DNA of 64,000 bases, from contig NZ_JAGDYL010000001.1 of the NCBI RefSeq assembly GCF_017565705.1, positions 124,001 to 188,000 of the forward strand. Reading direction: 5' to 3'. Origin of the DNA: Leucobacter ruminantium (GTDB lineage Bacteria; Actinomycetota; Actinomycetes; Actinomycetales; Microbacteriaceae). Below the pieces are notes generated by a model, which saw nothing but the letters and a program-made list of their open reading frames with translations, was not told the origin of the DNA and searched no databases. The translations under genes and the position numbers were made by a program. This document shows positions 79 through 63,295 of this stretch, in pieces. Numbering within the stretch: the stretch's first letter is position 1; every line of letters begins with the position of its first letter.

Positions 79-92
79 CGGAGACGCGATCC

Positions 93-2681
93 CTAGTCGC
101 GCAGGCGAGCGCCGAACGCGGTCTCGGCCGCGGCGACGCCCGCGAGCTTCGCCTCGCTGGCCTCTTCGGCCTTCAGCGTGCGATCGCCCGCGCGGAAGCG
201 GAGGGCGAAGGTGAGCGCCTTCTCCCCCTCCTCGACGCCTGCTCCGCGGTAGTCGTCGACGATTCGCGCGTCCTCGAGCAGTTCACCCGCTCCCGCGACG
301 ACCACGGCGAGCACATCGCCCGCGGGCACATCGGCCGCAACGACGAGGGTGAGATCCTGCGTCGCCGCGGGGTAGCTCGAGAGCGGGAAGGTCTCGGGTT
401 CGCGCGGGGCCAGTTCGATGAGGCGGTCGAGATCGAGCTCGAACGCCGCCACCCGACCGTGCAGGTGGTGCTCCGCCACGAGCTCGGGCAGCAGCTCGCC
501 GGCCACGCCGACGACCTCGAGGCCGCCCTCGTCCCCCTCGACATCGCTGCTCACGCGCACGGCGAGCTCGGCGGTGCGGCCCGGGTGGAAGGCGCGGTGC
601 GAGCCCTGCGACACGACGAGCTCGGCCGAGACGGCCCCCGCGACGGTGCGCGCGGCGTCGAGCGCGTCGGCCCAGTCGTAGGCGCGGGCGCTCTCGCCCG
701 GCTGCTTGGCAGCCGCGTCGCCGAGCAGCAGGCCTGCGGCGCGGCGCGGCTGCGCCGGGATCGACGCGTTCAGCTCGGCGAGCACCGCGTCGCTCGGCCG
801 TTCGGCGAGCGGCGGCACCGAGTCGGTGCCGAGCCGGGCCTCGCCCGAACCGGCGGTCGGCTCGAACACCGAGCCGAACTCGACGAGGGCGAGGTCGGTC
901 ATGCCGCGCGAGGCGTTGCGCTGCGCCGCGCCGACGAGGCCGGGCAGCAGCGAGCGGCGCATGAAGGGGGTCTCCCCGTCGAGCGCGTTCGCGAGGCGCA
1001 CGGCGTGCACCGCGTCGGGCTCGCCGGACGCCGCGGCCGACTCCGGGCCCGCGCCGAAGGCGTTCAGCTGCGCCCGCGACACGAACGGATAGCTCTGCAC
1101 CTCGTCGAGGCCCGCGGCGGTCGCGACGTTCGCGGCCCTGCGGCGCAGTCGCTGCTCGCGGGTGAGCCCGCGTCCGGCGGGCGCGACCGGCAGCACCGAG
1201 GGGATGCGGTCGTAGCCGACGATGCGGGCGACCTCCTCGATCAGGTCGGCTGCGCGGGCCAGGTCGGAGCGCCAGCTCGGCGGGGTCACGACGATCTCGC
1301 CCTCGGCGCCGTCGGTCACCTCGCAGCCGATCATCTCGATCGCGGCGCGGGCCTCCGCATCGGTGTAGTCGGCGCCCGTGAGGCCGTTCACGCGGGAGAG
1401 CCGCAGCTCGACGCGGGGAGCCTCCCACGGCGCGACGATCTCGGTGCCGAGCTCGTCCGCGGTGCCGCCCGCGAGCTCGACGAGCAGGTCGACCATGCGC
1501 TGGGCGGCCGCGCGCGCGACGAGCGGATCGACGCCGCGCTCGAAGCGCTTGGACGCCTCGCTCGGCAGCTTGTGGCGGCGCGCCGTGCGGGCGATCGACA
1601 CCGGGTCGAAGGTCGCGGCCTCGACGAGCACGTCGACCGTGCCCTCGCCGACCTCGGTCGTCCGGCCGCCCATGACGCCGGCGAGACCGATCGGGCCCGA
1701 CTCGTCGACGATCAGCAGATCCTCGGGATCGAGCTTGCGCTCCTGCCCGTCGAGGGTGACGAGCGTCTCGCCCCGGGCCGCGCGACGCACCGTGAGGCCG
1801 CCGCGCACCTTGGCGAGGTCGTAGGCGTGCAGCGGGTTGCCGAGCTCGAGCATCACGTAGTTCGAGATGTCGACGGGCAGCGACAGGGATCGGATCCCCG
1901 CGAGCTGCAGGCGCGTGACCATCCACGTCGGCGTGGGCCGGGTGGGGTCGATCCCTCGCACCACCCTGGTGATGAAGCCGGTCGCGCCCACTCGGCCCCT
2001 GATCGGGGCCTCGTCTGCGAGCACGACGGGGAAGCCGGATGCCGGCGCGGGCGACACGGCGAGCGCGGGATCGCGGAACTCGGCACCGGTCGAGTGGGCG
2101 TACTCGCGGGCGACCCCGCGGATCGAGAACGCGTAGCCGCGGTCGGGCGTCACGTTGATCTCGACCGCGCTGTCGTCCATGCCGAGCAGCGGCAGCGCGA
2201 GCTCGCCGACCTCCGGGTCGAGGCCGAGACGCGACAGCACGATGATGCCGTCGTGGTCCTCGCCGAGCGACAGCTCGCGGGCCGAGGCCATCATGCCGTC
2301 GGAGACGTGGCCGTAGGTCTTGCGGGCCGCGATCTCGAAGCCTCCCGGCAGCACCGAGCCGGGCAGCGTGACGACGACCTTGTCGCCGACCTCGAAGTTG
2401 TGGGCTCCGCACACGATGCCGCGCACGTCGTCGCCGCCGTCGGCCGCGCGCTGCCCCTCGGGCGCCACGCGCACGCTGCACCAGTTGATGGTCTTGCCGT
2501 TCGACTGGGGTTCGGGCTCGCGCGTCAGCACCTGGCCCACGACGAGCGGACCCGACACGTCGAAGCGGCGGATCGACTCCTCCTCGAACCCGACGCGCAC
2601 CAGGTCGGCGTGCACCTGCTCGGGCGTGGTGCCTTCGGGCAGCGAGACGTACTCGCCGAGCCAGCTGAGTGGAACGCGCAT
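93..2681 (-). CDS. pheT: Phenylalanine--tRNA ligase beta subunit
   Basis: The 862-residue product is the beta chain of the cytosolic (alphabeta)2 enzyme that charges tRNA-Phe. It begins MRVPLSWLGEYV, typical of the family. An OB-fold tRNA-binding domain lies at about residues 40-155, B3/B4 and B5 regions follow, and an FDX-ACB anticodon-binding domain sits at about 770-862 (FPLSSYPAATQDLTLVV to the end). It is somewhat longer than many bacterial PheT proteins because of Ala/Gly/Glu-rich insertions around residues 600-690. Its ATG shares one base with the pheS stop (TAATG), so the two subunits are probably translationally coupled. Confidence 0.97.
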   Translation of the reverse strand: MRVPLSWLGEYVSLPEGTTPEQVHADLVRVGFEEESIRRFDVSGPLVVGQVLTREPEPQSNGKTINWCSVRVAPEGQRAADGGDDVRGIVCGAHNFEVGDKVVVTLPGSVLPGGFEIAARKTYGHVSDGMMASARELSLGEDHDGIIVLSRLGLDPEVGELALPLLGMDDSAVEINVTPDRGYAFSIRGVAREYAHSTGAEFRDPALAVSPAPASGFPVVLADEAPIRGRVGATGFITRVVRGIDPTRPTPTWMVTRLQLAGIRSLSLPVDISNYVMLELGNPLHAYDLAKVRGGLTVRRAARGETLVTLDGQERKLDPEDLLIVDESGPIGLAGVMGGRTTEVGEGTVDVLVEAATFDPVSIARTARRHKLPSEASKRFERGVDPLVARAAAQRMVDLLVELAGGTADELGTEIVAPWEAPRVELRLSRVNGLTGADYTDAEARAAIEMIGCEVTDGAEGEIVVTPPSWRSDLARAADLIEEVARIVGYDRIPSVLPVAPAGRGLTREQRLRRRAANVATAAGLDEVQSYPFVSRAQLNAFGAGPESAAASGEPDAVHAVRLANALDGETPFMRRSLLPGLVGAAQRNASRGMTDLALVEFGSVFEPTAGSGEARLGTDSVPPLAERPSDAVLAELNASIPAQPRRAAGLLLGDAAAKQPGESARAYDWADALDAARTVAGAVSAELVVSQGSHRAFHPGRTAELAVRVSSDVEGDEGGLEVVGVAGELLPELVAEHHLHGRVAAFELDLDRLIELAPREPETFPLSSYPAATQDLTLVVAADVPAGDVLAVVVAGAGELLEDARIVDDYRGAGVEEGEKALTFALRFRAGDRTLKAEEASEAKLAGVAAAETAFGARLRD

Positions 2682-3803: not shown

Positions 3804-5690
3804 CTATCGCGCCCCGGATCCGGTTCCCGCGTCGAGGCTGCGCACGATCTCCCCGATCAGCGCTTCCGAGGCCGAGCGGTCTCCCTCGGCGCCAGCCCGG
3901 TCGATGGCCGACGCGAGCGCGCCCGCCATCGCGACGGCGTGGCGGCGGCCGTCGACCTCGATCGAGAAGTCGACGCGCTCGGGCGGTGCCGCGGCCCCCC
4001 GCGGCTCGCCGATGTCGTCGGGGTCGACCGCGACGAAGCGCACCTCGCTGCCGGGGCTCAGCTGGGCGGCCCGGTCGAGGTCGTCGTCGACGACCGTGCC
4101 GATGACGGGGTAACCGCCGGTCGTGGGATGGTCGGCGAGGAACAGCACGGGCAGGCCGTTGGGCGGCACCTGGATGGAGCCGCGCACCATGCCCTCGGTG
4201 GGCAGCTCGCCCTCGCGCTCGCGCTCGAGCGGTTCGCCGTCGAGGCGCAGGCCGATGCGGTTCGACTGCGGCGTGACCCGCCACGGGCGCTCGGCGAATG
4301 CGGCGAGGGATCCCTCGGTGAACCAGTCGTCGCGCGGGCCGGCCACGAAGCGCAGCACCGGCACGAGATCGGCTGGCGCCGGTGCGGGCGAGGGATCCCT
4401 ATCGGTCCCGCTCCCATTCACGGACTCTGGATCCGGCTCGCCGATCGCCTCCGTCGCGATCGTGTCGCCCGGCGCGAGCGGAGCCGTGCCCAGGCCGGAG
4501 AGGCTGTCGTGGGCGAGGCTGCCGAGCACGGTGCGACCGGCGATCCCGCCTCGCACCGCCACGTAGCAGCGCAGTCCGTGCTGCGGCGCACCGAGCGTCA
4601 GCCGGTCGCCCGCCCGCAGCGCGATCTCCTCGCCCGCGGCCGCCTCCCGCGTCTCCGCAGAAGTCTCCGCGCCGGAGCGGCCGTCTCCGGTCGTGACGGA
4701 GATCTCGGCGTCCGCACCGGTCACCGCCACGGCGGTGTCGCGCTCGGCGCGCAGCACGAGGCCACCGCCGAGGTGCTCGAGGCCGGCCGCGTCGAGCCGA
4801 TTGCCGACCGCGCGATTGGCGGCGCGCAGCGCGGCACGGTCGAGCGCGCCCGACTCCGTGACGCCGAGTGCGGCGTTGCCCGGCCTGCCGCCGTCCTGCA
4901 CGAGCGTGAGCATGCCGGGTCGCACGACCGCGAGTGCGGGGCTCGATCCCTCGCGCGCGATCGCGGCTTCAGCAGTGTCCGCCGCGTCGTCCGAGCCTGC
5001 CGAGAGGGTGAGGGATCCCTCGCCGTCCGCGCCGCTCGCGCCCCGGGCGGCAGCGACGCGCTCCCGCACTGCGCGGAAGCGCACCGAGTCGCCGGGCGAT
5101 ACGAGCGCGGGGCGATCCCTCGACTCGTCCCACATCCGCTCGCCCGTGCGACCGAGCAATCGCCAGCCCCCGGGCGACTCCCCCGGGTAGACCGCCGAGA
5201 ACTCTCCGGCGATCGCGACCGAGCCCGCGGGCACGGCCGTGCGCGGCGAGTCGAGTCGGGGCACTCGCAGGCGCTCGTCGCCGCCGACGAGGTAGGCGAA
5301 GCCGGGCGCGAAGCCGCCGAACGCCGCGCGCCAGGCGGCGCCGGTGTGCGCGGCGACGACGCCCTCGGCGCCGAGACCGGTGAGCTCGCCGACCGCTTCG
5401 AGATCGTCGCCGTCGTAGACGACGTCGATCGTCACCTCCCGCCCGACGGTCTCCCCCGCCGCGACATCGGGCTCGAAGCCGGAGACGGCGTCGGAAACGC
5501 GGTGCACGGCCTCCCGCCCGTCGCAGACGACCAGCACCGTGCACGTCGCGGGCACGATGTCGACGACGCCGGGAATCGCGAGCTCACGCAGCCGCGCCGC
5601 GACGCCGAGCACACGATCGAGGTCGGGCAGATCGACGATGCAGGCGCGATCGCCGACCGGGCGCACTGGGAAGCCGCGGTCGCGGGGCAT
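3804..5690 (-). CDS. pxpBC: 5-oxoprolinase subunits B and C, natural fusion
   Basis: This 628-residue protein fuses PxpB (KipI-like, about residues 1-230) to PxpC (KipA-like, about 255-600). With PxpA it hydrolyses 5-oxo-L-proline to glutamate using ATP in the cytosol. The PxpB part shows GFAPGFAYLVGG and PRTAVPAGSVAIAG; the PxpC part shows VQDGGRPG, SNRIGLRLDG and HPTTGGYPVIGTV, all family hallmarks. The linker between the domains is rich in Ala, Glu and Ser. The ATG overlaps the pxpA stop by one base (TGATG). B and C are separate genes in Escherichia coli and Bacillus, and fused in several actinobacteria. I see no sign of a frameshift or of a missing segment. Confidence 0.92.
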   Translation of the reverse strand: MPRDRGFPVRPVGDRACIVDLPDLDRVLGVAARLRELAIPGVVDIVPATCTVLVVCDGREAVHRVSDAVSGFEPDVAAGETVGREVTIDVVYDGDDLEAVGELTGLGAEGVVAAHTGAAWRAAFGGFAPGFAYLVGGDERLRVPRLDSPRTAVPAGSVAIAGEFSAVYPGESPGGWRLLGRTGERMWDESRDRPALVSPGDSVRFRAVRERVAAARGASGADGEGSLTLSAGSDDAADTAEAAIAREGSSPALAVVRPGMLTLVQDGGRPGNAALGVTESGALDRAALRAANRAVGNRLDAAGLEHLGGGLVLRAERDTAVAVTGADAEISVTTGDGRSGAETSAETREAAAGEEIALRAGDRLTLGAPQHGLRCYVAVRGGIAGRTVLGSLAHDSLSGLGTAPLAPGDTIATEAIGEPDPESVNGSGTDRDPSPAPAPADLVPVLRFVAGPRDDWFTEGSLAAFAERPWRVTPQSNRIGLRLDGEPLEREREGELPTEGMVRGSIQVPPNGLPVLFLADHPTTGGYPVIGTVVDDDLDRAAQLSPGSEVRFVAVDPDDIGEPRGAAAPPERVDFSIEVDGRRHAVAMAGALASAIDRAGAEGDRSASEALIGEIVRSLDAGTGSGAR

Positions 5691-6445: not shown

Positions 6446-6463
6446 GGATCCCTCTCCTTCTGC

Positions 6464-8881
6464 TTAGTCAGTCGCGTGCACGCGCTTCAGGAAGCGCCGC
6501 GTCCGATCGTGCTCGGGGCGGTCGAACACCTGCTCGGCCGGCCCCTCCTCGACGACGACTCCCTGGTCCATGAACACGACCCAGTCGGCCACCTCTCGGG
6601 CGAAGCGCATCTCGTGCGTCACCACCACCATAGTGAGGCCCTCGGCTGCGAGTTCGGTCATGACCCGCAGCACCTCGTCGACGAGCTCGGGATCGAGGGC
6701 GGAGGTGGGCTCGTCGAAGAGCAGCGCCTCGGGCTCCATGGCGAGCGCCCGCGCGATCGCGACGCGCTGCTGCTGACCGCCCGACAGCTGATGCGGGTAC
6801 TTCTCGGCATGCGCGTCCATGCCGACCTTCGCGAGCAGCGCCATGGCCCGCTCCCGGATCTCGGCACGCGACGCGGTGCGCAGGTAGTCGGGCGCGAAGG
6901 TGACGTTCTCGATGACCGTCTTGTGCGGGAACAGGTTGAACTGCTGGAACACCATGCCCACCTCGGCGCGCGTCGCCGCGACGACCCGGTCGGAGACCGG
7001 CTTCTTCGCGCCGCTCGCGTCGCGGGCGTAACCCACGGGCTTGCCGTGGAAGAGCACATCGCCCGAGTTGATCGGCTCCATCGCGTTGAGCGTGCGGATG
7101 AGGGTCGTCTTGCCCGAGCCGGAGGGGCCGATGATCGCGATGACCTCGCCGCGGTGCACGTCGAGGTCGATGCCCTTGAGCACCTCCGTCTCGCCGTACG
7201 ACTTGCGCAGTTCGCGCACCTGCAGCACCTGCTCGCCCTCGTGCGGCGTGCGCTCGCGCTTCGGGGCGGGCGGGAGCACGTCGATGTTCGAGGTGGCGGT
7301 GCCGAGCTTCGCGCGCTTGCCCCTGCGGTTCACGTCGAGTCGGCGCTCGAGCAGGCGCAGCGCCTGGTCGAAGACGGTGACGAGCATCACGTAGAAGATG
7401 CCGACCGCGAGCAGGGTCTCGAGCACCTTGAAGTTCTGCGTGTAGATGCGCTGACCCACGAGCAGGATCTCGGTCAGCGAGATCGCCGAGACGAGCGAGG
7501 TCAGCTTGATGATGGTGACCAGCTCGTTGCCGAGCGCGGGCAGCGCGACGCGGAAGGCCTGAGGGATCACGATGAGGCGCTGCACGCCGCCCCAGGGGAT
7601 GCCGAGCGCGCGGCCCGCCTCGCCCTGACCGCCCGCGACCGACTTCAGGCCGCCGCGGTGGATCTCGGAGATGTAGGCCGTCTCGGAGAGCACGAGCGCG
7701 AGCAGACCGGCCATGAACGGCGATCCGACGATCGCGCGCAGCTCGGGGATCACCTGCGGCGCGTTGTAGACGAAGATCAGCAGCACGAGCAGCGGGAGGG
7801 ATCGGAAGAACCACACGTAGGCCCCGAGCACGGCGCGCAGCCAGGCGAAGCGCGACTGCCTGCCGAGGGCGACCGCCATGCCGAGCACGGTCGAGATGCC
7901 CCACGCGAGGGCCGAGAGCACGAGCACCGTGAGCGCGGCGGACCAGAAGTCGGGCACCGCGAAGAGGCTGAAGAAGTAGGGCCAGTCGAAGACGAATCCC
8001 TGCTTCGCTCCCGCCTCGTCGCCCTCGGCCGGCGCGTTCTTCCCCATCGCCTCGGCCACGGCCTCGGGATCGGGCTCCGCGAGGTTGTACTGCGCGAGCA
8101 GCTTCTCGTAGGTGCCGTCCTCGCGCATGCGCTCGATGCCGCCGCGCAACTCCTCGGCGAGTTCGGTGTCGCCCTTGGCCACGGCGATGCCGACGGAGGC
8201 GGGGAACAGCAGTTCATCGCTCGTGATCGCGAGCGAGCCGTTCGAGGCGTCGACCGCGCTCTTGGCGACGGCCGCGTCGGTCACCTGCGCGTCCACCTGC
8301 CCGGCGAGCAGCGCCTGGGTGCCCTCGGTGTCGGAGGTGAAGTCGCGCACGTCGATCGCGGCGCCGCCGTCCTTCTCGCAGGCCGCGCTCGCCTCGCTGC
8401 GTAACTGGGTGGCGACCTCTCCGCCCTTGATCACGGCGACGCTCAGGCCGCACAGATCACCCGCATCGCGCACGGGCGCCGAGTTTGTCGGTGAGACGAT
8501 CGAGTTGCCGGTGGTGAAATACGGGATGAAGTCGACCTGCCCCGCTCGCTCCTCGGTGATGTAGAGCGCCGAGGCCACGACGTCGAAGTGGCCCGCCTGA
8601 AGGCTCGTGATGAGCTGCTCGAAACGGGTGTCGACGAACTCGGGCTCGCGATCGATCTGCGCCGCGAGCGCCCGCATGAAGTCGGGGTCGAAGCCGGCGG
8701 GCTCCTCGCCGTCGAGATAGGCGTAGGGCGGGTAGGTGAGATCGGAGCCGATCCGGAGCACGCCGTCGTCGGCGGCGGCGCCGGCGCTGCTCGCCTGCGT
8801 GAGTGGCGCCGCGACGGCGGCGAACCCGAGGAGCGCGGCCGCGAGGCCGACGATCAGGGTCCTGCTTCTTCGAAGAATCAT
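6464..8881 (-). CDS. Single-chain amino-acid ABC importer (binding protein, permease and ATPase fused)
   Basis: This 805-residue protein carries all parts of a polar amino-acid importer. A signal/anchor segment (about 1-30) is followed by a type 3 solute-binding domain (about 35-270, with [12 protein letters not shown] and [10 protein letters not shown]), a HisM/GlnP-type permease (about 300-510, with [12 protein letters not shown] as the EAA loop), and a GlnQ-type ATPase (about 550-795) with Walker [10 protein letters not shown] near 585, the signature LSGGQQQR near 699 and Walker B LLFDEPTS near 717. I prefer the ATG at 8881, directly ahead of the signal sequence, over an in-frame TTG at 8917. 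Fusions of two parts are common in this family; three parts in one chain is unusual. The pxp genes downstream suggest 5-oxoproline or glutamate-like substrates, but the specificity is inferred. Confidence 0.88.
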
Positions 8882-8917: not shown

Positions 8918-9082
8918 TGGTCGAGTAACGAAATGTCATAACTCGTATTGCTTGAGCGAATGACCCTCCCGTGCGCGCGGACAGGGAAACGCGGCATTTC
9001 AGGGATCCTTCGCCCCGAGCGGCAAGGGATCCCGCCCCGCCGCTCTCCTTCATCGCGCAGCGCTCCGTCCCGATAATCGATT

Positions 9083-9120: not shown

Positions 9121-9972
9121 ATGTCTCCAGCCCACGTCGCACCCGGAGAGTCCGCCGCCGAGGCCGCACTCCACGCGCTGCGCCGCCGCATCATCGCAGG
9201 CGAGCTCCCGCCCGGCGAGCGCCTGGTCGACGCCGTCGTCGCCGAGCAGCACGGCGTCTCGCGCAACACCGCGCGCGACGCGCTGCGCCTCCTCGCCGCC
9301 GAGGGTCTCGCCGTCTCGGTGCGCAACGTCGGCTACTCCGTGCGCGCCCTCGCGATCGACGACATCCGCGACCTCTACGCAGCTCGCCGGATCATCGAAT
9401 CGGGCTCCGTGCTGCAGAGCCACGCCGCGTCGGAGGATCTTCTCGCCGACATCGACGCCGCCGTCACGCGCACCGAGCGCTCCGTGCGCGGCGGCGACTG
9501 GTCGAGCGTCGGCACCGGGAGCCTCGCCTTCCACCAGGCGATCGTGCGGCTGGCCGGCTCGCCGAGCCTCGAGCGGGCCTTCGACGTCATCGCAGCGCAG
9601 CTGCGCCTCGCCTTCGCGGTGATCCCCGACGAGGGCGCGTTCCAGGTGCGCTGGATCGCGCGCGACCGGGAGATCGCCGAACTCGTGCTCTCCGGCGCCC
9701 GCGCCGAGGCCGCGAAGGCGCTGGCCGCCTACCTCGACGACTCCGAGGCGAGCGTGATCGACGCGCTGCGCGCGGCCGAGCGTCTGCGGACGCGCGCCGG
9801 CGAGGAGCCCGCCGACGACGCGCCCGCCGGCTCGAGCCCCCCGGCGATCGGCGAGGCCGAAACCCACCCGGGCTCCTCTGTCGGCGCCGGCGCGCCGACC
9901 GGCGCCGATCCCTCCCCTCACTCCGCCGCCGCACAGCGCGGCGCAGCAGCCCCGAAAGGACACCATGACTGA
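9121..9972 (+). CDS. GntR-family regulator, FCD subfamily
   Basis: The 283-residue protein has an N-terminal winged helix (about 10-80; RRRIIAGELPPGERL, then SRNTARDALRLLAAEG as recognition region) and an all-helical FCD ligand domain (about 90-225). The last 55 residues are a low-complexity Pro/Ala/Gly tail not expected in the family. The gene is divergent from the importer-pxpABC operon and its 3' end overlaps the DUF1989 gene by 8 bp. By position it is the pyroglutamate-responsive repressor or activator of both arms; the ligand is inferred. GATCCCTCCC in the tail is another copy of the widespread GATCCCT word. Confidence 0.85.
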   Translation: MSPAHVAPGESAAEAALHALRRRIIAGELPPGERLVDAVVAEQHGVSRNTARDALRLLAAEGLAVSVRNVGYSVRALAIDDIRDLYAARRIIESGSVLQSHAASEDLLADIDAAVTRTERSVRGGDWSSVGTGSLAFHQAIVRLAGSPSLERAFDVIAAQLRLAFAVIPDEGAFQVRWIARDREIAELVLSGARAEAAKALAAYLDDSEASVIDALRAAERLRTRAGEEPADDAPAGSSPPAIGEAETHPGSSVGAGAPTGADPSPHSAAAQRGAAAPKGHHD

Positions 9973-10810
9973 ACAGGTCGCCTCACTCACCGACGCCGCC
10001 TACAAGGGCCCCGCCCTCGAAGTCGACCGCGATTTCTACGGGGCCATCGCCGAGCAAACCGCCACGCGCACCCTCGTCGACAGCTTCGAGATCCCGATCC
10101 GTTCGGGCCGCGCCTGGGAGGTGCCAGCCGGGCACGTCTGCCGCCTTCTCACCGTCGACGGTCCGCAGGTCGGCGACCTCAACATCTGGAACCGCCACAA
10201 CCCGCGCGAGCGGTTCTGGGCCGCCCGCACGCGTCAGCTGCAGGCCGCCCACGTCACCACCTTCGACCGGCTCTGGTCGACGCTGCCCTACATCAGGCCG
10301 CTCGTCACCATCACCGCCGACACCCTCGAGAACTACGGAGTCGACGCCGAGGGCGGCCGGGTGCACGACACCCTCGGCACGCGCTGCGATCCCTACATCA
10401 ACCGCAAGCTCACGGGCGAGGACTTCGACTACCACTGCCACTCGAACCTCGTGCGCGCCGTGCGCCCCTACGGACTCACCGAGTTCGACGTGCACGACGT
10501 GCTCAACGTCTTCCAGTGCACGGGCCTCAACGACCGCGATCAGTACTTCATGAAGACCTGCCCCGCGCAGGTCGGCGACTACTTCGAGATGTTCGCCGAG
10601 CAGGATCTGCTGATGGCCCTCTCCACGTGCCCCGGTGGCGATCTGTCGGTGCCGATGTGGGGCGACGGAGCGCACGATCCCATCGAGGTCTGCCGCCCCA
10701 TCGGCGTCGAGATCTACCGCATCGACGACACGCTGCTCGAGGGCTGGCAGCAGCCTGCGCTCCCCGAGTACGCCGGCGGGCACGCCCTCGTCGAGCGCCC
10801 CTGGAGCTGA
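9965..10810 (+). CDS. DUF1989 (urea carboxylase-associated family) protein
   Basis: This 281-residue protein belongs to DUF1989, a family often found beside urea carboxylase or amide-metabolism genes but with no settled reaction. Conserved segments include VPAGHVCRLLTVDGPQVGD, RHNPRERFW, DTLGTRCDPY, CHSNLVRA and FMKTCPAQVGDYFEMFAEQ, with several His and Cys that could bind metal. AAAGGA precedes the ATG, and the start lies inside the end of the GntR gene, so the two are co-translated. A role in 5-oxoproline or related amide nitrogen metabolism is suggested only by context. Confidence 0.8.
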   Translation: MTEQVASLTDAAYKGPALEVDRDFYGAIAEQTATRTLVDSFEIPIRSGRAWEVPAGHVCRLLTVDGPQVGDLNIWNRHNPRERFWAARTRQLQAAHVTTFDRLWSTLPYIRPLVTITADTLENYGVDAEGGRVHDTLGTRCDPYINRKLTGEDFDYHCHSNLVRAVRPYGLTEFDVHDVLNVFQCTGLNDRDQYFMKTCPAQVGDYFEMFAEQDLLMALSTCPGGDLSVPMWGDGAHDPIEVCRPIGVEIYRIDDTLLEGWQQPALPEYAGGHALVERPWS

Positions 10811-10846: not shown

Positions 10847-11479
10847 ATGGAGGGATCGCGACCGGCCGTACGCCCGCGGCGCGCGCATCGCGCGAGCCGC
10901 GGGGCGCGCACGCTCCGCGGCACCCTCGGCGCTGCGGCCGCGACCCTCATCGCCGCCGCCTCCCACTCGCTGGCGGGAGGATCCCTCACCTGGCAGGCCC
11001 TGGCCGCCACCGCGATCCTCTCGCTGCCCGTCTGCGTGCTGCTCGCCGGCCGCGCCGCCTCGCTGTGGCGCCTCTCGCTCGCCGTCTGCACCTCGCAGTT
11101 CCTCTTCCACTGGAGCTTCGCGGGCCTCGGCGCCCCCACCGCGACCGGCTCGCCGGCGCCGCTGCACGCCGCGCACCTCGCAGCGCTCGAGCGGTTCGCG
11201 CCGACTCCGCTCGCCTCGGGCGCGGCGGAGGCGGACGCCGCCATGTGGCTCGGCCACGCCGTCGCCGCCCTGCTGACCATCGCGCTGCTGCACCGCGGCG
11301 AGCGCGCCGGCCTCGCGCTCCTGCGCCTCATCCGCCGCGCACTCCCCTGTGCGGCACCGCGGCTCTCCCCCGTCTCCCGGCGCCCGGCTCCCACTGCCGT
11401 CATCCGGCCGATCGCGCTCCGCGACCGGCTGTTCTCCTCCTCCGCGATCACGCACCGCGGGCCGCCGCTCGCCGTCTGA
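10847..11479 (+). CDS. Hypothetical membrane protein upstream of copC
   Basis: I do not recognise this 210-residue protein by family. It has an Arg-rich N-terminus, about four hydrophobic stretches (around residues 30-50, 55-72, 78-95 and 130-150) and a basic C-terminal tail. His residues occur next to membrane segments (AAASHSL, FLFHWSF, MWLGHAV), and the position ahead of copC and a PCu(A)C gene suggests copper handling. The start is chosen because TAGGAT lies seven bases upstream; the codons read MEGSRPAVRPRRAH. Confidence 0.6.
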   Translation: MEGSRPAVRPRRAHRASRGARTLRGTLGAAAATLIAAASHSLAGGSLTWQALAATAILSLPVCVLLAGRAASLWRLSLAVCTSQFLFHWSFAGLGAPTATGSPAPLHAAHLAALERFAPTPLASGAAEADAAMWLGHAVAALLTIALLHRGERAGLALLRLIRRALPCAAPRLSPVSRRPAPTAVIRPIALRDRLFSSSAITHRGPPLAV

Positions 11480-11766: not shown

Positions 11767-12468
11767 ATGTCTCGCACATCCCGCCCCGCCCCCCGACCCG
11801 CTCGCGTCGGCCGACGCATCGCCCGCGCCGCGGGCGCAGCACTCATCGCCGCAGTCGCGGCCACCAGCATCGCCTCCCCCGCGCTCGCGCACGACGAGCT
11901 CGTCGACCGCACCGTCACCGTCGATCCCTCGACCGGGACCGTCGACGACATCACCCTCACGTTCAGCGACAGCATCATCGAGGTCGGCACCGAGATCGTC
12001 GTGACCGGCTCCGACGGGGCCGACGCGACCGACGGCGAGCCTCAGGTCAGCGGCCCCCGAGTGGTGCAGCCGCTCGCCGCGGACCTGCCCGACGGCGACT
12101 ACGCGGTCGCGTGGCGCGTCGTCTCGAGCGACGGCCACCCGATCGAGGGATCCTTCACGCTGCAGGCCGCAGGCGCCGACTCCGCCATCCTCGAGGCCGA
12201 TCCGCGCTTCGAGGACGGCGCATCGGCCGCTTCCGACGCCTCGGAGCAGGCGGCGGAGCACGACCACGCAGCCGAGGGCGAGGGATCCGAGGGCGGCGCC
12301 CCGGTCGGCGCCCTCATCGCCGTGATCGTCGGCGGAGCAGCTGTCATCGCGGGCGGGCTCGCCGCTGCCACCGCGGGGCGCAAGCGCCGCGCCCGGGGCA
12401 TGGCCGCGGACACCGAACGCACCGACGGCGCCGGAAGCGCCGCTCAGGGCGAGGAGGACCGCGCATGA
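11767..12468 (+). CDS. copC: CopC-domain copper resistance protein, membrane anchored
   Basis: This 233-residue protein has a signal peptide ending at about ALA, so the mature chain begins with His, which can form the Cu(II) histidine-brace site of CopC. A single CopC beta-barrel (about residues 42-140) ends with SSDGHPIEGSF, which supplies further Cu ligands (Asp and His). A His-containing acidic linker (EHDHAAEGEG) and a C-terminal membrane helix (about 180-205) tether it outside the membrane. GGAG precedes the ATG at 11767. It overlaps the PCu(A)C gene by 4 bp (ATGA). No CopD is seen. Confidence 0.9.
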   Translation: MSRTSRPAPRPARVGRRIARAAGAALIAAVAATSIASPALAHDELVDRTVTVDPSTGTVDDITLTFSDSIIEVGTEIVVTGSDGADATDGEPQVSGPRVVQPLAADLPDGDYAVAWRVVSSDGHPIEGSFTLQAAGADSAILEADPRFEDGASAASDASEQAAEHDHAAEGEGSEGGAPVGALIAVIVGGAAVIAGGLAAATAGRKRRARGMAADTERTDGAGSAAQGEEDRA

Positions 12469-13010: not shown

Positions 13011-14307
13011 CCCGGTAGAGCTCCGAGACGAACGCACACTGGATGCGGAACCCTCCCGGCCCGGCCTGGGCCGACGCGCGCTGCTCACCGGCGGCGCCGT
13101 CGGCCTCGGGGCGCTGCTCGGGGCGGGCGGAGCACTCGGTACCCGAGTGCTCCGGGAGGCCGCGGCACCGCCGCCTCCCGGAACCGCGGCCGCAGCCGAG
13201 ACGGTTCCCGCAGCGGGCGGGAGCGGATCCCTCGCCGGGTTCGGCGGCGAGTCGCTCCCCTGCCACGGCGCCCACCAGGCGGGGATCGTGACCGCCCCGG
13301 CCGCGCACGTGGTGCACTCTGCGTTCGCGCTGCGCGCCGCGACCGATGCGGCCGCGCTGCGACGCATGTTCCGCGTGCTCACCGACGACGTCGAGGGGCT
13401 CACCTCGGGCAACGGACCGCTCGCCGATCCCGAGGTCGAGCTCGCGGCCCGGCCGGCCCGGCTGACGGTGACGGTGGGCGTCGGCCCCGAACTCGTCTCC
13501 CGGACCGGCGCCGCACGGCCCGCATGGTTGGCCCCGCTCCCCGCCTTCGAGCGCGACCACCTCGGCTCGGGCTTCGACGGCGGCGATCTGCTCGTGACAC
13601 TGCAGGCCGACGACCCGCTGCCGATCGCGCACGCGATGCGCATGATCGGCCGCGACCTCGCAGGCTTCGCGGAACCGCTGTGGACGCAGCGCGGCTTCCG
13701 GCAAGCCCGGGGAGCGGAGGCTGACGGCACCACCATGCGCAACCTCATGGGCCAGGTCGACGGCACCGTGAACCCCTCGCCCGCCGACGGGGAGGACTTC
13801 GACGATCTCGTGTGGCTCGGCCCCGAGGCGGGCTGGCTCGCGGGCGGCAGCGCGTTCGTGCTGCGGCGCATCCGCATGGAGCTCGCGACGTGGGACGCGG
13901 TGGACCGCCCCGGTCGGGAGCAGACGATCGGGCGCCGCCTGTCGGACGGCTCGCCGCTCAGCGCTCCGTCCGAGACGGCGACCGAGTCCACGCCCGCCGA
14001 CTTCTCCGCGACCGACGAGCGCGGGCTCAGCCGCATCCCGATGGCGGCGCACATCCGCCGCGCGCACTCGACCGACCCGGCGGAGCGCGTCTTCCGCCGC
14101 GCCGCGAATTACGACGAGGGCGGCGAGTCGGGGCTCCTGTTCGGCTGCTACCAGCGCGATCCGCTGCGGCAGTTCGTACCGATCCAACGCCGACTCGACG
14201 AGGCCGATCTGCTCAACGAGTGGGTCACGCACGTGGGTTCGGCCGTGTTCGCGATCCTGCCGGGGTTCGAGCGGGGCACCCTGCTCGGCGACCCGCTGTT
14301 CGAGTAG
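12991..14307 (+). CDS. DyP-type heme peroxidase, Tat exported
   Basis: The 438-residue protein has a twin-arginine signal (GLGRRALLTGGAVGLG, about residues 25-45), which implies folding with heme before export. The DyP hallmark GxxDG is seen as GQVDG near residue 255, and the distal Arg and proximal His regions (AAHIRRAHS, GLLFGCYQRDP) are present. The GTG start follows GGAGG closely and lies within the PCu(A)C gene. The copper chaperone context resembles DtpA/ECuC loci, so reduction of peroxide coupled to Cu(I) handling is plausible. The EfeB-type iron function is an alternative, but no efeUO genes are next to it. Confidence 0.9.
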   Translation: MSTAGTDPVELRDERTLDAEPSRPGLGRRALLTGGAVGLGALLGAGGALGTRVLREAAAPPPPGTAAAAETVPAAGGSGSLAGFGGESLPCHGAHQAGIVTAPAAHVVHSAFALRAATDAAALRRMFRVLTDDVEGLTSGNGPLADPEVELAARPARLTVTVGVGPELVSRTGAARPAWLAPLPAFERDHLGSGFDGGDLLVTLQADDPLPIAHAMRMIGRDLAGFAEPLWTQRGFRQARGAEADGTTMRNLMGQVDGTVNPSPADGEDFDDLVWLGPEAGWLAGGSAFVLRRIRMELATWDAVDRPGREQTIGRRLSDGSPLSAPSETATESTPADFSATDERGLSRIPMAAHIRRAHSTDPAERVFRRAANYDEGGESGLLFGCYQRDPLRQFVPIQRRLDEADLLNEWVTHVGSAVFAILPGFERGTLLGDPLFE

Positions 14308-47983: not shown

Positions 47984-48922
47984 TCAGCCCGCCGTCGACT
48001 CCTCCGGCGCGGAGAGCTCGGGCCCGTCGAACCACCGGGCGCCCGGGTAGCGCTTGAACCAGCTGACCTGACGCCGCGCGTAGCGCCGCGTGAGCGCCTG
48101 GGTCTCGGCGATCGCCTCCGCCTCGGTCATGCGCCCCTCGAGCTGCGCGAGTGCCTGCGCGTAGCCGATGGCGCGGCTCGCGGTCCTGCCCTGCGCCAGG
48201 CCGCGAGGGATCAGCTCCCGCACCTCGTCGAGCAGCCCGTCCGCCCACATGCGCTCGACCCTCCTGTCGAGGCGTTCGACGAGGGCGGAGCGCGCGCAGC
48301 GCACGCCGAGGATGCTCGTGTCGGCTCGCCACAGGGTCGGCTCCTGCGGCAGCACGACCTGCGGGTCGCCTCCGAGCAGCAGCACCTCGAGGGCGCGCAC
48401 CACGCGGCGAGGGTTCCGGGCGTCGACGGCGTCCGCAGTCTTCGGAGCGAGGGATCGCAGGCGTTCGAGCAGAGGCTCCACGCCGCGCCGCTCGAGCTCA
48501 GCCTCGAGTTCGGCGCGCAGCGCATCGTCTCGGGGCGGGAACCGGAAGTCGAAGAGCACGCTGGACACGTACAGACCCGAGCCCCCCACCAGGATGACGT
48601 CGGATCCGCCTGCGGTGAGCTGATCGATCATCGAGCGCGCGAGTGCCTGGTACCAGGCGACGGCGCCCTCCTCGCCCGGTTCGAGCACGTCGAAGAGGTG
48701 GTGAGGGATCCCGCGCCGCTCATCCGGGGCCAGCTTGGCGGTGCCGATGTCCATGCCCCGGTAGAGCTGCATGGCATCGGCGTTCACGATCTCGACGCGC
48801 CGGCCCGCGGCGACGAGCTCTTCGGCGAGGTCGAGGGACAACGCCGACTTCCCGGTGCCCGTCGCACCGACGATCGCCCAGAGCCGCGCGTCGGCGGAAC
48901 TCGCCTGCGTGTGCCGGTCCAC
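47984..48922 (-). CDS. miaA: tRNA dimethylallyltransferase
   Basis: The 312-residue enzyme adds dimethylallyl to A37 of tRNAs reading UNN codons, the step before MiaB. The P-loop is GATGTGKS (19-26); NADAMQLYRGMDIGTAKL, LVGGSGLYV and TRRYARRQVSWFKR are typical. The GTG start is one base after the miaB stop, so the two modification enzymes are made together. Confidence 0.96.
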   Translation of the reverse strand: MDRHTQASSADARLWAIVGATGTGKSALSLDLAEELVAAGRRVEIVNADAMQLYRGMDIGTAKLAPDERRGIPHHLFDVLEPGEEGAVAWYQALARSMIDQLTAGGSDVILVGGSGLYVSSVLFDFRFPPRDDALRAELEAELERRGVEPLLERLRSLAPKTADAVDARNPRRVVRALEVLLLGGDPQVVLPQEPTLWRADTSILGVRCARSALVERLDRRVERMWADGLLDEVRELIPRGLAQGRTASRAIGYAQALAQLEGRMTEAEAIAETQALTRRYARRQVSWFKRYPGARWFDGPELSAPEESTAG

Positions 48923-48923
48923 G

Positions 48924-50471
48924 TCAGCCGTCGGCGCTGGTGCGCACGGTCGGCATGCCGAGCCCGACGGCGCGGGGGGCGGTGGACGCGGGCGACGCGG
49001 GCACGCCGCAGCTCTCCGCCTGCCTGCGATCCCACGCGTCGCCTGCGCGGGTGCGCCTCACGGTGTAGGCCGCGGCGTCGTCGGCGATGAGGAAGTGCGG
49101 GGCGGCCCCCGTCACGCGAACCGTGACGACGTCGCCGGGCCGGGGCGACTCGGCGGAATCGGGCACCGTGAAGTGCACGAGCCGGTTGTCCTCGGCTCGG
49201 CCGGAGAGACGCAGGGTGGCGGCGTCCTTCTTACCCTCCCCCACGGAGACCAGCACCTCGACTTCCCGGCCGATCTGCGCGTGGTTCTCCTCGAGCGAGA
49301 TGCGCTCCTGCAGCTCGATGAGGCGGTCGTAGCGACGCTGCACGATCTCCTTGGGCAGTTGGCCGTCCATCTCCGCGGCGGGTGTGCCTGGACGGATGGA
49401 GTACTGGAAGGTGAACGCGCTCGAGAAGCGGGACTGCTCGACCACCCGCAGGGTGTCCTCGAAGTCCTCCTCGGTCTCGCCGGGGAAGCCGACGATGATG
49501 TCGGTAGTGATGGCCGCGTCGGGAATCTGCTCGCGCACACGGTCGAGGATGCCGAGGAAGCGCTTCGAACGGTAGGAGCGCCGCATGGCCTTGAGCACGG
49601 TGTCGGAGCCCGATTGCAGCGGCATGTGCAGCGAGGGCATGACGTTCGGCGTCTCGGCCATGGCGGCGATGACGTCGTCGGTGAAGGCCGCGGGGTGCGG
49701 GCTCGTGAAGCGCACGCGTTCGAGACCCTCGATCTCGCCCATCGCGCGCAGCAGCTTGCCGAAGGCCTGACGGTCGCCGAACTCGACGCCGTAGGTGTTG
49801 ACATTCTGTCCGAGCAGGGTGACTTCGACGGCGCCGTCGTCGACGAGCGCCTGCACCTCGGCGAGGATGTCGCCCGGTCTGCGGTCCTTCTCCTTGCCGC
49901 GCAGCGAGGGGACGATGCAGAAGGTGCAGGTGTTGTTGCAGCCCACCGAGATCGAGACCCAGCCGCTCGACGCGGAGTCGCGCTTGGTGGGAAGCGTCGA
50001 AGGGAAGACTTCGAGCGCTTCGAGGATCTCGACCTGCGCTTCGGCGTTGTGGCGCGCGCGCTCGAGGAGCGTGGGCAGCGAGCCCATGTTATGCGTGCCG
50101 AAGACCACGTCGACCCAGGGGGCCTTCTCGATGATCTCGCCCTGGTCCTTCTGCGCCAGGCAGCCGCCGACCGCGATCTGCATGCCCTCGCGCTCCCGCT
50201 TCACGCCCGCGAGTCGACCGAGGTTGCCGTAGAGCTTGTTCGCGGCGTTCTCGCGCACCGCACAGGTGTTGATCACGATCACATCGGCGTCTTCGGCGTT
50301 CTCGGCAGCGACATAGCCTGCGGCCTCGAGGGATCCCGACATGCGCTCGGAGTCGTGCACGTTCATCTGACACCCGAGGGTGCGCACGGCGTAGCTGCGG
50401 GGGCTGCCGTTCGGCCCGAAGGCGGCGGGGGAAGGAGCGATCGCGATGGGGTCTGCGGTTGCGGCACTCAT
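48924..50471 (-). CDS. miaB: tRNA-2-methylthio-N6-dimethylallyladenosine synthase
   Basis: The 515-residue radical SAM methylthiotransferase modifies the MiaA product at A37. The N-terminal cluster domain has [13 protein letters not shown] and NTCAVRENA, the radical SAM motif is [12 protein letters not shown] (about 175-186), and a TRAM domain lies at about 395-460. The first 25 residues and the last 50 are nonconserved. TAGAAT lies seven bases before the ATG, so miaB has its own start besides read-through from recA. Confidence 0.96.
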
Positions 50472-51370: not shown

Positions 51371-52456
<1,086 letters not shown>

Positions 52457-52663: not shown

Positions 52664-52705
52664 CGCAACACGCCACACGCGCTTCATGCGCTCTCGATCC
52701 CTCGC

Positions 52706-53469: not shown

Positions 53470-54016
53470 TTAGGGATCCGCACTCGCTCACGGCGAGCTC
53501 GAGCGCCGCGCGCACCGCCGCCTCGCGGATCGTGGGCCGATCGAGTCCGGCGAGCCCAGGCAGCAGGAGCGTCCGCTCTCCGTGCCGCCCGCTCGCACCG
53601 ATCCATACGGTGCCCGCCGGCTGCCCGGTCTGCGGGTCGGGATCGGGTCCCGCCACACCCGTGGTCGAGATGCCCAGATCCGCGGGCGCGGGCGTTCCCT
53701 CCCCCAGCGGCACGGCGCAGGCTTCCCGCACACCCGCCGCCATCTGAGCGGCGACATCCGCATCGACCGGTCCGCGCTCGCGCAGCAGGGCCGCGTCCAC
53801 CCCGAGCAGCGAGCGCTTCAGCGCGGTGTCGTAGGCGACGATCCCCCCGGAGAAGACGCGCGAGGCACCCGGCACCGAGACGATGCTCGCGGCGAGCAGA
53901 CCGCCCGTCAGCGACTCGGCGACGGCAAGCCGCAGGCCGAGACCGGCGGCCCGCTCGACGAGCAGCGCGGCGAGTTCCGGGACACCTCGCCCTCCGGCCG
54001 CCGCGGCACCGCTCAC
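53465..54016 (-). CDS. CinA C-terminal domain protein (nicotinamide-nucleotide amidohydrolase family)
   Basis: The 183-residue protein is the stand-alone PncC-type amidase domain of CinA, which deamidates NMN to NaMN. AESLTGGLLAASIVSVPGASRVF, GGIVAYDTALK and STTGVAGPDPDP are family motifs. The GTG start overlaps the pgsA stop by 4 bp (GTGA). The N-terminal CinA domain is absent, as is usual in actinobacteria. Confidence 0.92.
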   Translation of the reverse strand: MSGAAAAGGRGVPELAALLVERAAGLGLRLAVAESLTGGLLAASIVSVPGASRVFSGGIVAYDTALKRSLLGVDAALLRERGPVDADVAAQMAAGVREACAVPLGEGTPAPADLGISTTGVAGPDPDPQTGQPAGTVWIGASGRHGERTLLLPGLAGLDRPTIREAAVRAALELAVSECGSLT

Positions 54017-59460: not shown

Positions 59461-60504
59461 CTAACGCCGCCGCAGCGCCCGCACGACCCTCTTCGCGAGC
59501 GGCAGCCCCTCGGTCCACAGCTTGTACCCGGGGCCGGGCCGATCCCACGTCCCCGCGAGCAGGTTCTCGTGCGACGCCCAGCCCTTCTTGAAGGTGGTCA
59601 CGCCGTCGTTGATGAGCCCGCCGAAGTCGTAGCGCTCGATCCCCAGCCGCTTCATCTCGCGGATCACGTGCCACTTCAGAGCGTAGTTGGCGCGCAGGCG
59701 CTGGCCGGTCTCGTCCATACCGCCGTAGAGTTCGAACGCGGTGCGCTCCGACTTCGCCATGAACAGGAACGCGACCGGCCGGTCGTCGACGTAGGCCGCC
59801 CAGACGGGCGAATCATCGCCCAGCATGGTGAATGCGTCGTGGTAGTACGAATCCTCGTGCAGCCCGAAGTCGGCCCGCTCGCTCGTCTGCCGGTACACCT
59901 CGAGGCACGCGTCGAGCTGCTCGATCGTCTCGACCGGGCGGATCGACAGCGATTCCTCGCGGCCCGCCTTGCGCACGTACTGACGGTGCTTCTTCGACAT
60001 GTCGGCGAGCAGCTCGTCCTCGGAGCGCCGCAGATCGAGGATCAGCGTACGCGCGGGCAGCACGGGTGTCTTCGCCTCGCGCCAGGACGCGGGCAGGGAG
60101 AACGCGCCCGCGTCCTCGTCGGGCTCGATCGACACGGCGACTGCGCGGCGCGAACCGTGCACGTAGGCGGCGATCGCATCGGCGACGGCGGAGGGCGAGG
60201 GATCCGCCGCAGGCCGCTCGGGGTCGGCCTCCGAACGCGCGACAACCGGGCCGCGCGGGGCGTAGACGAAGCCGCCGAGCGGGCCGGGCAGGGCGCGGGT
60301 CAGCAGCTGGCAGGCGCCGACCACACGGGCCTGCGGCCCGGATCCCTCGCGGACCAGCACCCGCTCGGCGCTCCAGCGGTGCGCCGCCTTGAGATCGCCC
60401 CACCCCCACAGCTGCAGCGGATGGCCGCCGAGGCGCTTCACCGTGTCGTCCCAGAGCGCGCGGTCGTCGCACGGCGTCACGTGCAGGGTCGCAGAGGAGG
60501 TCAC
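59461..60504 (-). CDS. FemABX-family peptidoglycan aminoacyltransferase (1)
   Basis: The 347-residue protein has the double-GNAT fold of FemX/MurM enzymes, which add amino acids from aminoacyl-tRNA to lipid [44 protein letters not shown] and [17 protein letters not shown] are typical. The GTG start follows AAGGAA and overlaps the murJ stop by 4 bp. It is distinct in sequence from the second FemABX protein on the other side of murJ, so they may add different residues. Confidence 0.88.
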
Positions 60505-62120: not shown

Positions 62121-63295
62121 CAGTAGTAGGGATCCTTCTTGAGCGCGAGAGAGGCACGGCGGGCGATGCGGTCTCCGAGCTTCGACCAGATCGCGTAGGC
62201 GCGGGGCTTCAGCGGCAGGTCGAATGCGCCGGCGTAGTCGGTGATCTCGGGCGAGAAGGAGCGCTTGAACTGCCCCACGCCGTGCAACGGATGGCCCTTG
62301 TCGTCCGCGCGATCATTCGGCGGTGCGCCGCACAGATCGTGCACGGTCGCACCGCGCTCGTGCGCCCAGCGCAGCACCTCCCACTGCAGCGCATGCGAGG
62401 CGCCGTATGCGGTCTTCGCGCGCACGGAGGCGCCGTCCTTGTAGGTGGTCTTGGCGCCGAGCCCCATCGCGAACGCGCCCGCGACGAGCCGCGGCTCGCC
62501 CGCGGCACCCGAAGCGGTGGCGTCGGCGTCGGAAGGATGCGATGCTTCCTTCCCCGAGGGATCGGCGCGGTACGCGAGGAAGATCTGGCCGGACCCCTCG
62601 CGCTCGAACGCCTGCCAGAACTCGCGATAGTACCCCTCCCGCCGCAGCACGAAGCGGCCCTCCGCCGTCTCGCGCAGCAGCCCGTAGAGCGCGGCGCAGT
62701 TCTCGTCGGTCGCGGGGGCGCGTGTCACCTCGATGCCGTCGCGGCGGGCGCGGTTGATCGAGTTGCGGGCCTTCTTGCCGAGGCTCGCGAAGAGCGCGTC
62801 CTCCACGGCGGAGGGATCGCCGAGGTCGACGAGCACCGTCGACGGATTCGGCACGATGCGCACCGTGTCTCGGTAACCGGCGGCGTGGATCGCTGCGCGC
62901 GCGTCGAGTCCGAGGCGCGGCTCGATCTTCAGCAGGAAGGCTCCGCGATCCCTCGCGAAACGCGCGACCGCCGCCGCGACCTCGAGCACCGCCTCGGTGC
63001 TCTCACCGGCGGGCCCGGCCGGCAGATGCCACCACTCGCCGAGCAGCGGCACGCGCTTCGCGAGCACGCCGACGGCGATGGGCTGCCTGCCGGGCCGCTC
63101 CACCACGACGCGGTAGTCGCGGTAACGGCCCTCTCGGCGCTTCACGCCGAGGTAGGCGTCGCCCATCCAGACCTCGCCGCCGCCCGGGTTCGCCGCGACG
63201 AGCGCATCCCAGGAGGAGCGCTCGGCGTCGGTCGCGAAGCGGGCGGTGACGGCCTCGGCCGGCGCCGGGCCCCCGGAGACGAGGGATCCCTCCAC
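62120..63295 (-). CDS. FemABX-family peptidoglycan aminoacyltransferase (2)
   Basis: The 391-residue protein is a second GNAT-like FemABX member. GGEVWMGDAYLGVKRREG, SLGKKARNSINRARRDGIEV, EGRFVLRREGYYREFW and the C-terminal LHGVGQFKRSFSPEITDYAGAFDLPL support this. A ~25-residue acidic insertion (about 245-270) breaks the second GNAT domain. The GTG start is encoded with a full GGAGGGATCCCTC word. The murJ ATG shares a base with the upstream-gene stop (TGATG). Confidence 0.87.
   Translation of the reverse strand: MEGSLVSGGPAPAEAVTARFATDAERSSWDALVAANPGGGEVWMGDAYLGVKRREGRYRDYRVVVERPGRQPIAVGVLAKRVPLLGEWWHLPAGPAGESTEAVLEVAAAVARFARDRGAFLLKIEPRLGLDARAAIHAAGYRDTVRIVPNPSTVLVDLGDPSAVEDALFASLGKKARNSINRARRDGIEVTRAPATDENCAALYGLLRETAEGRFVLRREGYYREFWQAFEREGSGQIFLAYRADPSGKEASHPSDADATASGAAGEPRLVAGAFAMGLGAKTTYKDGASVRAKTAYGASHALQWEVLRWAHERGATVHDLCGAPPNDRADDKGHPLHGVGQFKRSFSPEITDYAGAFDLPLKPRAYAIWSKLGDRIARRASLALKKDPYY

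Follow-up and report, generated by a model that had tools for sequence, protein, structure and literature searches.

Hyper-abundant genome words are carried by the Pasteurellaceae, among other bacteria, and in the uptake signal of this family a strict core about nine bases long is accompanied by a degenerate flank and by distant flank segments. KOPS and Chi sites are likewise short, G-rich, asymmetric and over-represented. To our knowledge, how one hyper-abundant genome word changes into another is an open question. For Neisseriaceae, PMC3630211 describes uptake sequences in ~900-5,900 copies per genome, which form dialects that differ by one or a few letters around a kept core and which in Simonsiella and Kingella also occur as overlapping dyad pairs. 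Cyanobacteria carry hyper-abundant words as well, namely the HIP sites, which according to PMC4390886 occur about once per 1,000 nt, usually together with a matching methyltransferase, and for which some lineages use words alternate to HIP1. Here, we describe the word AGGGATC in a 64,000-nt stretch of the Leucobacter ruminantium genome (positions 124,001 to 188,000 of contig NZ_JAGDYL010000001.1; from here on the window) and its distribution in the rest of this genome and in relatives. A search of the open-access literature brought up no description of such words for Microbacteriaceae, the family to which Leucobacter belongs.

It is well supported that AGGGATC is a species-specific word that replaces its one-letter neighbour CGGGATC through substitution. 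Because the change is a single letter on the branch of one species, with sister genomes that keep CGGGATC, drive, selection and mutation bias can be compared here and become testable against each other.

A word in excess across the genome

An initial annotation, made from the letters of the window alone, had counted close to 70 places with AGGGATC or its complement, far above what composition predicts. The excess holds: the two strands of the window together contain 77 exact matches, which fall at 71 places, compared with a mean of 10.2 (standard deviation 3.4) in dinucleotide shuffles of the window, none of which (0/100) reached 77. The most extreme 9-mer of the window is GAGGGATCC, with 35 copies compared with 1.1 expected from a second-order Markov model. 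Beyond the window, the draft assembly (3,305,448 bases in 69 contigs) holds 3,264 copies, of which 1,638 lie on the forward and 1,626 on the reverse strand. The genome-wide Markov comparison that had been proposed along with the count gives the same picture, with 496 copies compared with 91.6 expected from a third-order model in a 464-kb sample (the window and 400 kb of the same genome, from three contigs). At every length from 6 to 12, the top-ranked word of this sample is itself a part of AGGGATC or overlaps it. The excess is thus a real, strong and genome-wide feature. We consider a sequencing artefact unlikely, as many copies differ from the relatives by at least two letters and the substitution types are varied.

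In the 464-kb sample, the consensus around the word is ggcGAGGGATC[C/G], consisting of the strict 7-base core AGGGATC and graded flanks. Upstream, the preferred flank is g-g-c-G; downstream, it is C or G. The information is lost over four bases on the upstream side and over one on the downstream side, and up to 25 bases out there is no signal spaced by a helical turn. This strict core with a degenerate flank resembles the Pasteurellaceae uptake signal, although the sequence is unrelated and has no counterpart of the distant flank segments. The consensus is asymmetric and not palindromic. Overlapping palindromic pairs do occur, as in Simonsiella and Kingella, and account for 57 cases among 742 copies (704 kb of the genome contain the palindrome AGGGATCCCT 57 times). 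Copies are spaced nearly at random, with a mean of 975 bp, and show no strand bias, with 384 on the plus and 358 on the minus strand in the 704 kb and 70/63, 37/40, 47/50 and 98/91 in pieces of three contigs, all counted on draft contigs without the position of the replication origin. The orientation of adjacent copies alternates 345 times and repeats 280 times (704 kb, overlapping pairs removed), for which we have no explanation; of the separated neighbours at 4-40 bp, 17 are inverted and 17 lie on the same strand.

A one-letter switch within Leucobacter

The extended word GAGGGATC occurs 2,548 times in this genome and at most 388 times in each of 53 other Leucobacter genomes. CGGGATC numbers 1,855 here, compared with 5,287, 4,463 and 3,468 in the sisters G008, G047 and G029, respectively. 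Across Leucobacter, its count ranges from a minimum of 168 to a maximum of 5,811, and several genomes have fewer copies than this one without AGGGATC in their place, so that a low CGGGATC count alone is not the mark of the switch. CGGGATC is also the most depleted 7-mer here, with 257 copies in 464 kb compared with 475 in 400 kb of four relatives (the three sisters and G026), a comparison of three contigs here with the surroundings of one region in the relatives. Between genes, these four relatives, in which over-use against a Markov model was assessed, contain 80 CGGGATC copies compared with 28.6 expected, while this genome contains 31 compared with 22.9 and, in turn, 111 intergenic AGGGATC copies compared with 9.1. 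Summed, the two words make up 1.6 copies per kb in the sample of this genome; in their samples, the three sisters reach 1.3-1.5 and G026 reaches 1.2.

The named loci whose MiaB is closest to that of this genome belong to Leucobacter, at 86% identity. A tree of the miaA-miaB locus places this species beside G029, G008 and G047 (support 100/99). The tree comprises 29 of the 54 Leucobacter genomes and three outgroup loci, with 13 of 29 inner branches weak; G038, in which the locus is half covered, was left out, and the remaining genomes are without the locus. Since the tree groups this species with three CGGGATC-rich sisters, it suggests that the C-to-A switch at position 1 lies on the branch of this species alone, as far as the genomes compared can tell. 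The GCAGGATGAC of G047 was set aside as an intergenic-looking tandem repeat. Stretches of the same genome (L149-L153, L166-L170 and L198-L210) carry an intergenic-looking tandem repeat whose unit includes CTCGCGCAGGATGAC, often near GGATCCTGCGACTCGC.

Copies arise by substitution

To see how individual copies came about, 183 aligned pairs of an AGGGATC copy and a relative were examined. The alignment is gap-free inside the word in 142 of them and gap-free to 8 bp around it in 113, and the relative itself carries AGGGATC in only five. Opposite many copies, the relatives have a stretch of the same length that is one-off or unrelated, and the conserved unit around the word is no longer than about 12 bp. 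An indel lies within 8 bp in 70 of the pairs, compared with 0-33% for eleven control words, which fits a preference of the copies for unconstrained places.

Gains were counted against the consensus of the four relatives as a stand-in for the ancestor, in the 145,426 columns where two or more relatives agreed and nothing was inserted, which leaves out unalignable copies. Gains of one to three steps number 37, compared with 4.1 expected from the substitution spectrum (two further copies, four and five steps from the consensus, were excluded). The initial annotation had raised the possibility of gains at unconserved positions, and gains, made by substitution, are indeed what the comparison with relatives reveals. 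One-step gains account for 22 of the 37 (2.7 expected) and two- and three-step gains for 15 (1.4 expected). Among 5,974 control words with more than five expected gains, each strand counted, the highest ratio is 3.3; for two- and three-step gains, the ratios of other words go up to 5.7.

The largest single source is CGGGATC, converted in 15 of 97 cases, about 8-fold above background C>A. Fifteen other one-off words together yielded AGGGATC in 7 of 92 cases, and two-off routes contributed as well (AGCGAGC, 5/35; CGGCATC, 5/96). Because gains are raised along routes other than CGGGATC and over multiple steps, the finished word seems to be favoured, rather than one mutation alone, on counts that are small.

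Placement in genes and proteins

AGGGATC is enriched in all six reading frames, with 40-88 copies each in 464 kb compared with 1-8 each in 400 kb of the relatives. Intergenic DNA carries 2.02 copies per kb and genes carry 0.94 (464 kb), an approximate split based on gene calls made from codon usage. By gene arrangement, the density is 2.76 per kb between convergent, 1.81 between tandem and 2.09 between divergent genes, with no excess of separated inverted pairs. The presence in all frames and on both strands and the greater density between genes argue that the excess does not come from codon preference, Chi or KOPS.

The word also alters proteins, as the tripeptides EGS and DPS have become commoner than in relatives. 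EGS occurs 91 times per 464 kb here, compared with 45 times per 400 kb in the relatives, and is encoded by GAGGGATC in 69 of the 91 and 7 of the 45 cases, respectively. DPS is encoded by GATCCCTC in 64 of 86 cases here, compared with 2 of 33. Per kb, EGS and DPS reach 1.7 and 2.2 times the relatives' frequency.

Certain regions are poor in the word. The 5-kb bin that contains uvrB has no copy, and 26 kb of contig C1 (C1:74-100 kb) have only five, for which lower GC may be part of the explanation. This low-GC stretch (L128-L129) carries a TraG/VirD4-type coupling protein and an M23 peptidase; atypical word distributions are reported for integrated conjugative elements in PMC7371117.

What may have driven the spread

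Drive, selection and partial mutation bias are candidate engines of the spread, with DNA uptake favoured. We give a probability of roughly 40% to the reading that AGGGATC is the dialect form that a genome-wide word takes in this species, with self-DNA recognition in natural transformation as the engine. The starting state would be the over-use of CGGGATC found in the four relatives and, by count, in much of the genus. On the branch of this species, the favoured word would then have exchanged the C at position 1 for an A. DNA carrying AGGGATC would be taken up or recombined preferentially, leading to over-transmission of word-bearing alleles. Subsequently, AGGGATC would have spread to about one copy per kb by several kinds of completing substitution, in genes and between them and on both strands, while CGGGATC receded. 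The excess, the opposed courses of the two words, the mode of substitution and the indifference to frame and strand are observed in the data; uptake as the engine is an inference. It is suggested here by analogy: copy number, a one-letter dialect and placement in and between genes are shared with the Neisseriaceae uptake dialects. Plasmid transformation in mixed culture is reported for a Microbacterium, which belongs to the same family (PMC10257627), and the ComEC family (PF03772), the sole competence family searched, is present at C48:17284.

Several observations weigh against uptake. ComEC is a weak test because it is widespread, being found in 10 of 14 control genomes. The host is Gram-positive, unlike the Neisseriaceae, and there is no halo of one-off copies: one-letter variants of AGGGATC stand at about the relatives' level or below it (except AGGGGTC, AGGGACC and AGGGAAC, which reach 1.3-1.7x on small counts), whereas PMC3630211 describes Neisseriaceae genomes in which one-off copies outnumber perfect uptake words. 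The excess of separated inverted pairs that is typical of uptake sequences at terminators is missing as well. That the conjugative stretch is poor in AGGGATC would fit uptake, but its lower GC may be part of the cause, and the uvrB bin is equally empty. Among the roughly fifteen other one-off routes, twelve rest on at most ten cases, eleven of these without any conversion, and a single genome shows the switch. Preferential uptake of AGGGATC through a receptor is put forward as a candidate, drawn from the likeness to Neisseriaceae.

Among the alternatives, a strong rival is a chromosomal protein (nucleoid-associated, or acting in segregation or repair) whose specificity changed and whose binding sites are kept by selection, site by site; a DNA-organising protein had already been considered in the initial annotation. 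A strict 7-base core with graded flanks, hits on both strands and greater density between genes would all suit such a protein. Selection, however, would have to fix thousands of copies singly, including the amino-acid changes behind the additional EGS tripeptides, the spacing is close to random, and we have no candidate protein to name. On balance, we regard this explanation as unlikely. A mechanism like the one proposed for HIP1, in which an orphan methyltransferase recognises AGGGATC and biased mismatch repair keeps the mutations that complete it, has in its favour that HIP sites are likewise short words found about once per kb, with alternate words in some lineages. The published model, which according to PMC4390886 rests on MutS/MutL and a matching methylase, likewise favours any mutation that completes the site, and a C5 methyltransferase is indeed present, at C11:6804. 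This enzyme is phage-like, however, and sits in a 3.4-kb locus without AGGGATC; the PF01555 methylase is an ortholog common to sisters that lack the word, and no PF02086 methylase was found in a search that covered PF01555, PF02086 and C5 enzymes (Type I, III and IIG were not searched). The search for MutS (PF00488) gave no match in any of the 54 Leucobacter genomes, while 11 of 14 control genomes were positive (MutL and NucS were not searched), and AGGGATC, unlike HIP1, is asymmetric. The model is weakened by the lack of MutS matches and of a matching new methylase in the three families, and we consider it quite unlikely; the same searches lend no support to a methylase for GGATCC, an early suggestion for this word. 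The C5 methyltransferase itself (389 aa, locus L165) lies beside an AraC-type regulator.

Context-dependent mutation, in which this lineage turns GATCCCG into GATCCCT at a high rate, would explain why no single route is commoner than that from CGGGATC, whose fall would account for a large part of the gain. Yet the other one-off routes and AGCGAGC are raised too, the preference takes in flanking bases as far as four upstream, and two- and three-step gains are far in excess, though some of them contain a C>A step. As the whole explanation, it is improbable. A polar site for recombination or chromosome translocation, similar to Chi or KOPS, was another early proposal, and AGGGATC shares with these sites its dense occurrence, G-rich and asymmetric composition and length of 7-8 bases. 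Unlike them, it shows no strand bias in the 704 kb or in the pieces of the three contigs sampled, which makes such a role very improbable. Finally, the initial annotation had suggested a small proliferating repeat and had named codon-pair preference as a possible full explanation. The frequent nearby indels would speak for an inserted short mobile repeat, but the gap-free pairs, the equal length of the sequences replaced and the lack of a unit longer than about 12 bp oppose it, and substitutions explain the gains; codon choice does not explain a word that is enriched in all six frames. Both ideas are scarcely credible. With Chi/KOPS and the HIP1 repair model weakened, uptake, selection by a binding protein or partial mutation bias remain.

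Related words in other genomes

Among 396 genomes of the order (other Leucobacter excluded), GAGGGATCC occurs 1,244 times in this genome, 273 times in G141 and at most 102 times in the rest. G141 was rejected as a second AGGGATC genome, as its abundant word is GGATCC and AGGGATC is near expectation (69 compared with 60.5 in 280 kb). In stretches L290-L303 of G141, GGATCC numbers 146 between genes (47.4 expected) and 792 within genes (247.6 expected), both strands counted. In Clavibacter L072 and loci L047, L056 and L070, it numbers 36 (12.9) and 186 (79.0), respectively, with GGATGCC near expectation. GGATCC thus stands at about two to three times its expected count in places where GGATGCC is at background. 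GGATGCC (CGCGGCATCCG), in turn, is over-used about five- to nine-fold in G239, from a Microbacteriaceae genus, and in seven Microbacterium loci. In stretches L304-L309 of G239, there are 36 intergenic copies compared with 4.1 expected and 188 genic copies compared with 29.9; in the Microbacterium loci (L042, L043, L045, L048, L051, L063 and L067), these counts are 24 compared with 4.8 and 186 compared with 38.1.

These words raise the idea of a self-recognition word system across the Microbacteriaceae, an uptake-sequence system in Gram-positives with the dialects CGGGATC, AGGGATC, GGATCC and GGATGCC, all around GGAT, in which this species would have switched recently. If this is true, the spread of the new word could be traced substitution by substitution in this species. 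We regard it as tentative and on the doubtful side; GGATCC and GGATGCC of other Microbacteriaceae would have to belong to the same system. As a family-wide claim it is a lead and not a survey, because the loci were pooled after their excess had been noticed and other Microbacterium loci (L044, L054 and L056) have a weak GGATGCC excess or none.

Two Cryobacterium loci are nearly without GGATCC (L073, 2 compared with 9.2 expected; L074, 0 compared with 8.5). In other families, the top words are CCCCTTCG in Janibacter L105 (23 compared with 2.8 expected), CGGCATAC in Terrabacter L104 (10 compared with 0.3), CGACATAC in Flexivirga L115 (11 compared with 0.4) and ACGACGCC in Nesterenkonia L087 (12 compared with 0.4), each of which may be a coding repeat. 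Among 33 viral stretches with a 14-base extended palindrome, all chosen for holding AGGGATC, the 14 densest were counted, and the densest are short pieces. The most notable of them, the viral contig L244 (IMG/VR IMGVR_UViG_3300036791_000797), picked for its extended palindrome, has 8 AGGGATC copies in 6.6 kb compared with 1.4 expected.

Copies in the window

All copies in the window are listed in Table 1, which includes the six palindromes AGGGATCCCT that the initial annotation had named. Its remark that copies are rare in rplT and infC also agrees with the list, as there is no copy at 14,936-17,714, where these open reading frames sit (genes named from sequence, with no family search). It had further noted that most copies read in one direction from 23 to 42 kb and in the other from 42 to 63 kb. 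The counts are as described (7 plus and 19 minus, then 15 plus and 6 minus), but we treat the pattern as chance, because 4 of 60 random assignments were as strong and the strands are balanced in the 704 kb.

Table 1. AGGGATC copies in the window (positions counted from its first letter)
Feature	Position	Strand	Basis
AGGGATC	88..94	-	exact match
AGGGATC	1885..1891	+	exact match, aligned with relatives
AGGGATC	1950..1956	-	exact match
palindrome AGGGATCCCT, two overlapping AGGGATC words	4306..4315	.	exact match
palindrome AGGGATCCCT	4391..4400	.	exact match
AGGGATC	4945..4951	-	exact match
palindrome AGGGATCCCT	5011..5020	.	exact match
AGGGATC	5114..5120	-	exact match
AGGGATC, between two open reading frames	6447..6453	-	exact match
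AGGGATC	7562..7568	+	exact match
AGGGATC	7797..7803	+	exact match
AGGGATC	9001..9007	+	exact match
AGGGATC	9025..9031	+	exact match
AGGGATC, tail of GntR/FCD gene	9907..9913	-	exact match
AGGGATC	10388..10394	-	exact match
AGGGATC	10851..10857	+	exact match
AGGGATC	10980..10986	-	exact match
AGGGATC	11923..11929	-	exact match
AGGGATC	12146..12152	+	exact match
AGGGATC	12281..12287	+	exact match
AGGGATC	13226..13232	-	exact match
AGGGATC	14775..14781	+	exact match
AGGGATC; CGGGATC in three relatives, CGGGACC in G026	14929..14935	-	match and alignment
AGGGATC	17715..17721	-	exact match
AGGGATC	19716..19722	+	exact match
AGGGATC	20860..20866	+	exact match
AGGGATC	22388..22394	+	exact match
AGGGATC via codon changes, GGIRD stretch of histidine-biosynthesis gene	23350..23356	-	match and alignment
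AGGGATC	23900..23906	-	exact match
AGGGATC	24189..24195	-	exact match
AGGGATC	26366..26372	-	exact match
AGGGATC	26399..26405	-	exact match
AGGGATC	27894..27900	+	exact match
AGGGATC	28998..29004	-	exact match
AGGGATC	29680..29686	-	exact match
AGGGATC	29871..29877	-	exact match
AGGGATC	31494..31500	-	exact match
AGGGATC	31748..31754	-	exact match
AGGGATC	32045..32051	+	exact match
AGGGATC	33177..33183	-	exact match
AGGGATC, shared with relative G047	34524..34530	-	match and alignment
AGGGATC	34964..34970	+	exact match
AGGGATC	35577..35583	-	exact match
palindrome AGGGATCCCT	36826..36835	.	exact match
AGGGATC; CGGGATC in all three aligned relatives	37437..37443	+	match and alignment
AGGGATC	37777..37783	-	exact match
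AGGGATC	39604..39610	-	exact match
AGGGATC	39669..39675	-	exact match
AGGGATC	40023..40029	-	exact match
AGGGATC	40793..40799	+	exact match
AGGGATC	41279..41285	+	exact match
AGGGATC	42031..42037	-	exact match
AGGGATC	42297..42303	+	exact match
AGGGATC	44531..44537	+	exact match
AGGGATC	46965..46971	+	exact match
AGGGATC	47129..47135	+	exact match
palindrome AGGGATCCCT	47830..47839	.	exact match
AGGGATC	48206..48212	+	exact match
AGGGATC	48450..48456	+	exact match
AGGGATC; CGGGATC in all four aligned relatives	48704..48710	+	match and alignment
AGGGATC	50329..50335	+	exact match
AGGGATC coding EGS in recA	51636..51642	-	match and alignment
AGGGATC	52696..52702	-	exact match
AGGGATC	53472..53478	+	exact match
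AGGGATC	60198..60204	+	exact match
AGGGATC	60341..60347	-	exact match
AGGGATC	62128..62134	+	exact match
AGGGATC	62557..62563	+	exact match
AGGGATC	62812..62818	+	exact match
AGGGATC	62947..62953	-	exact match
palindrome AGGGATCCCT	63282..63291	.	exact match

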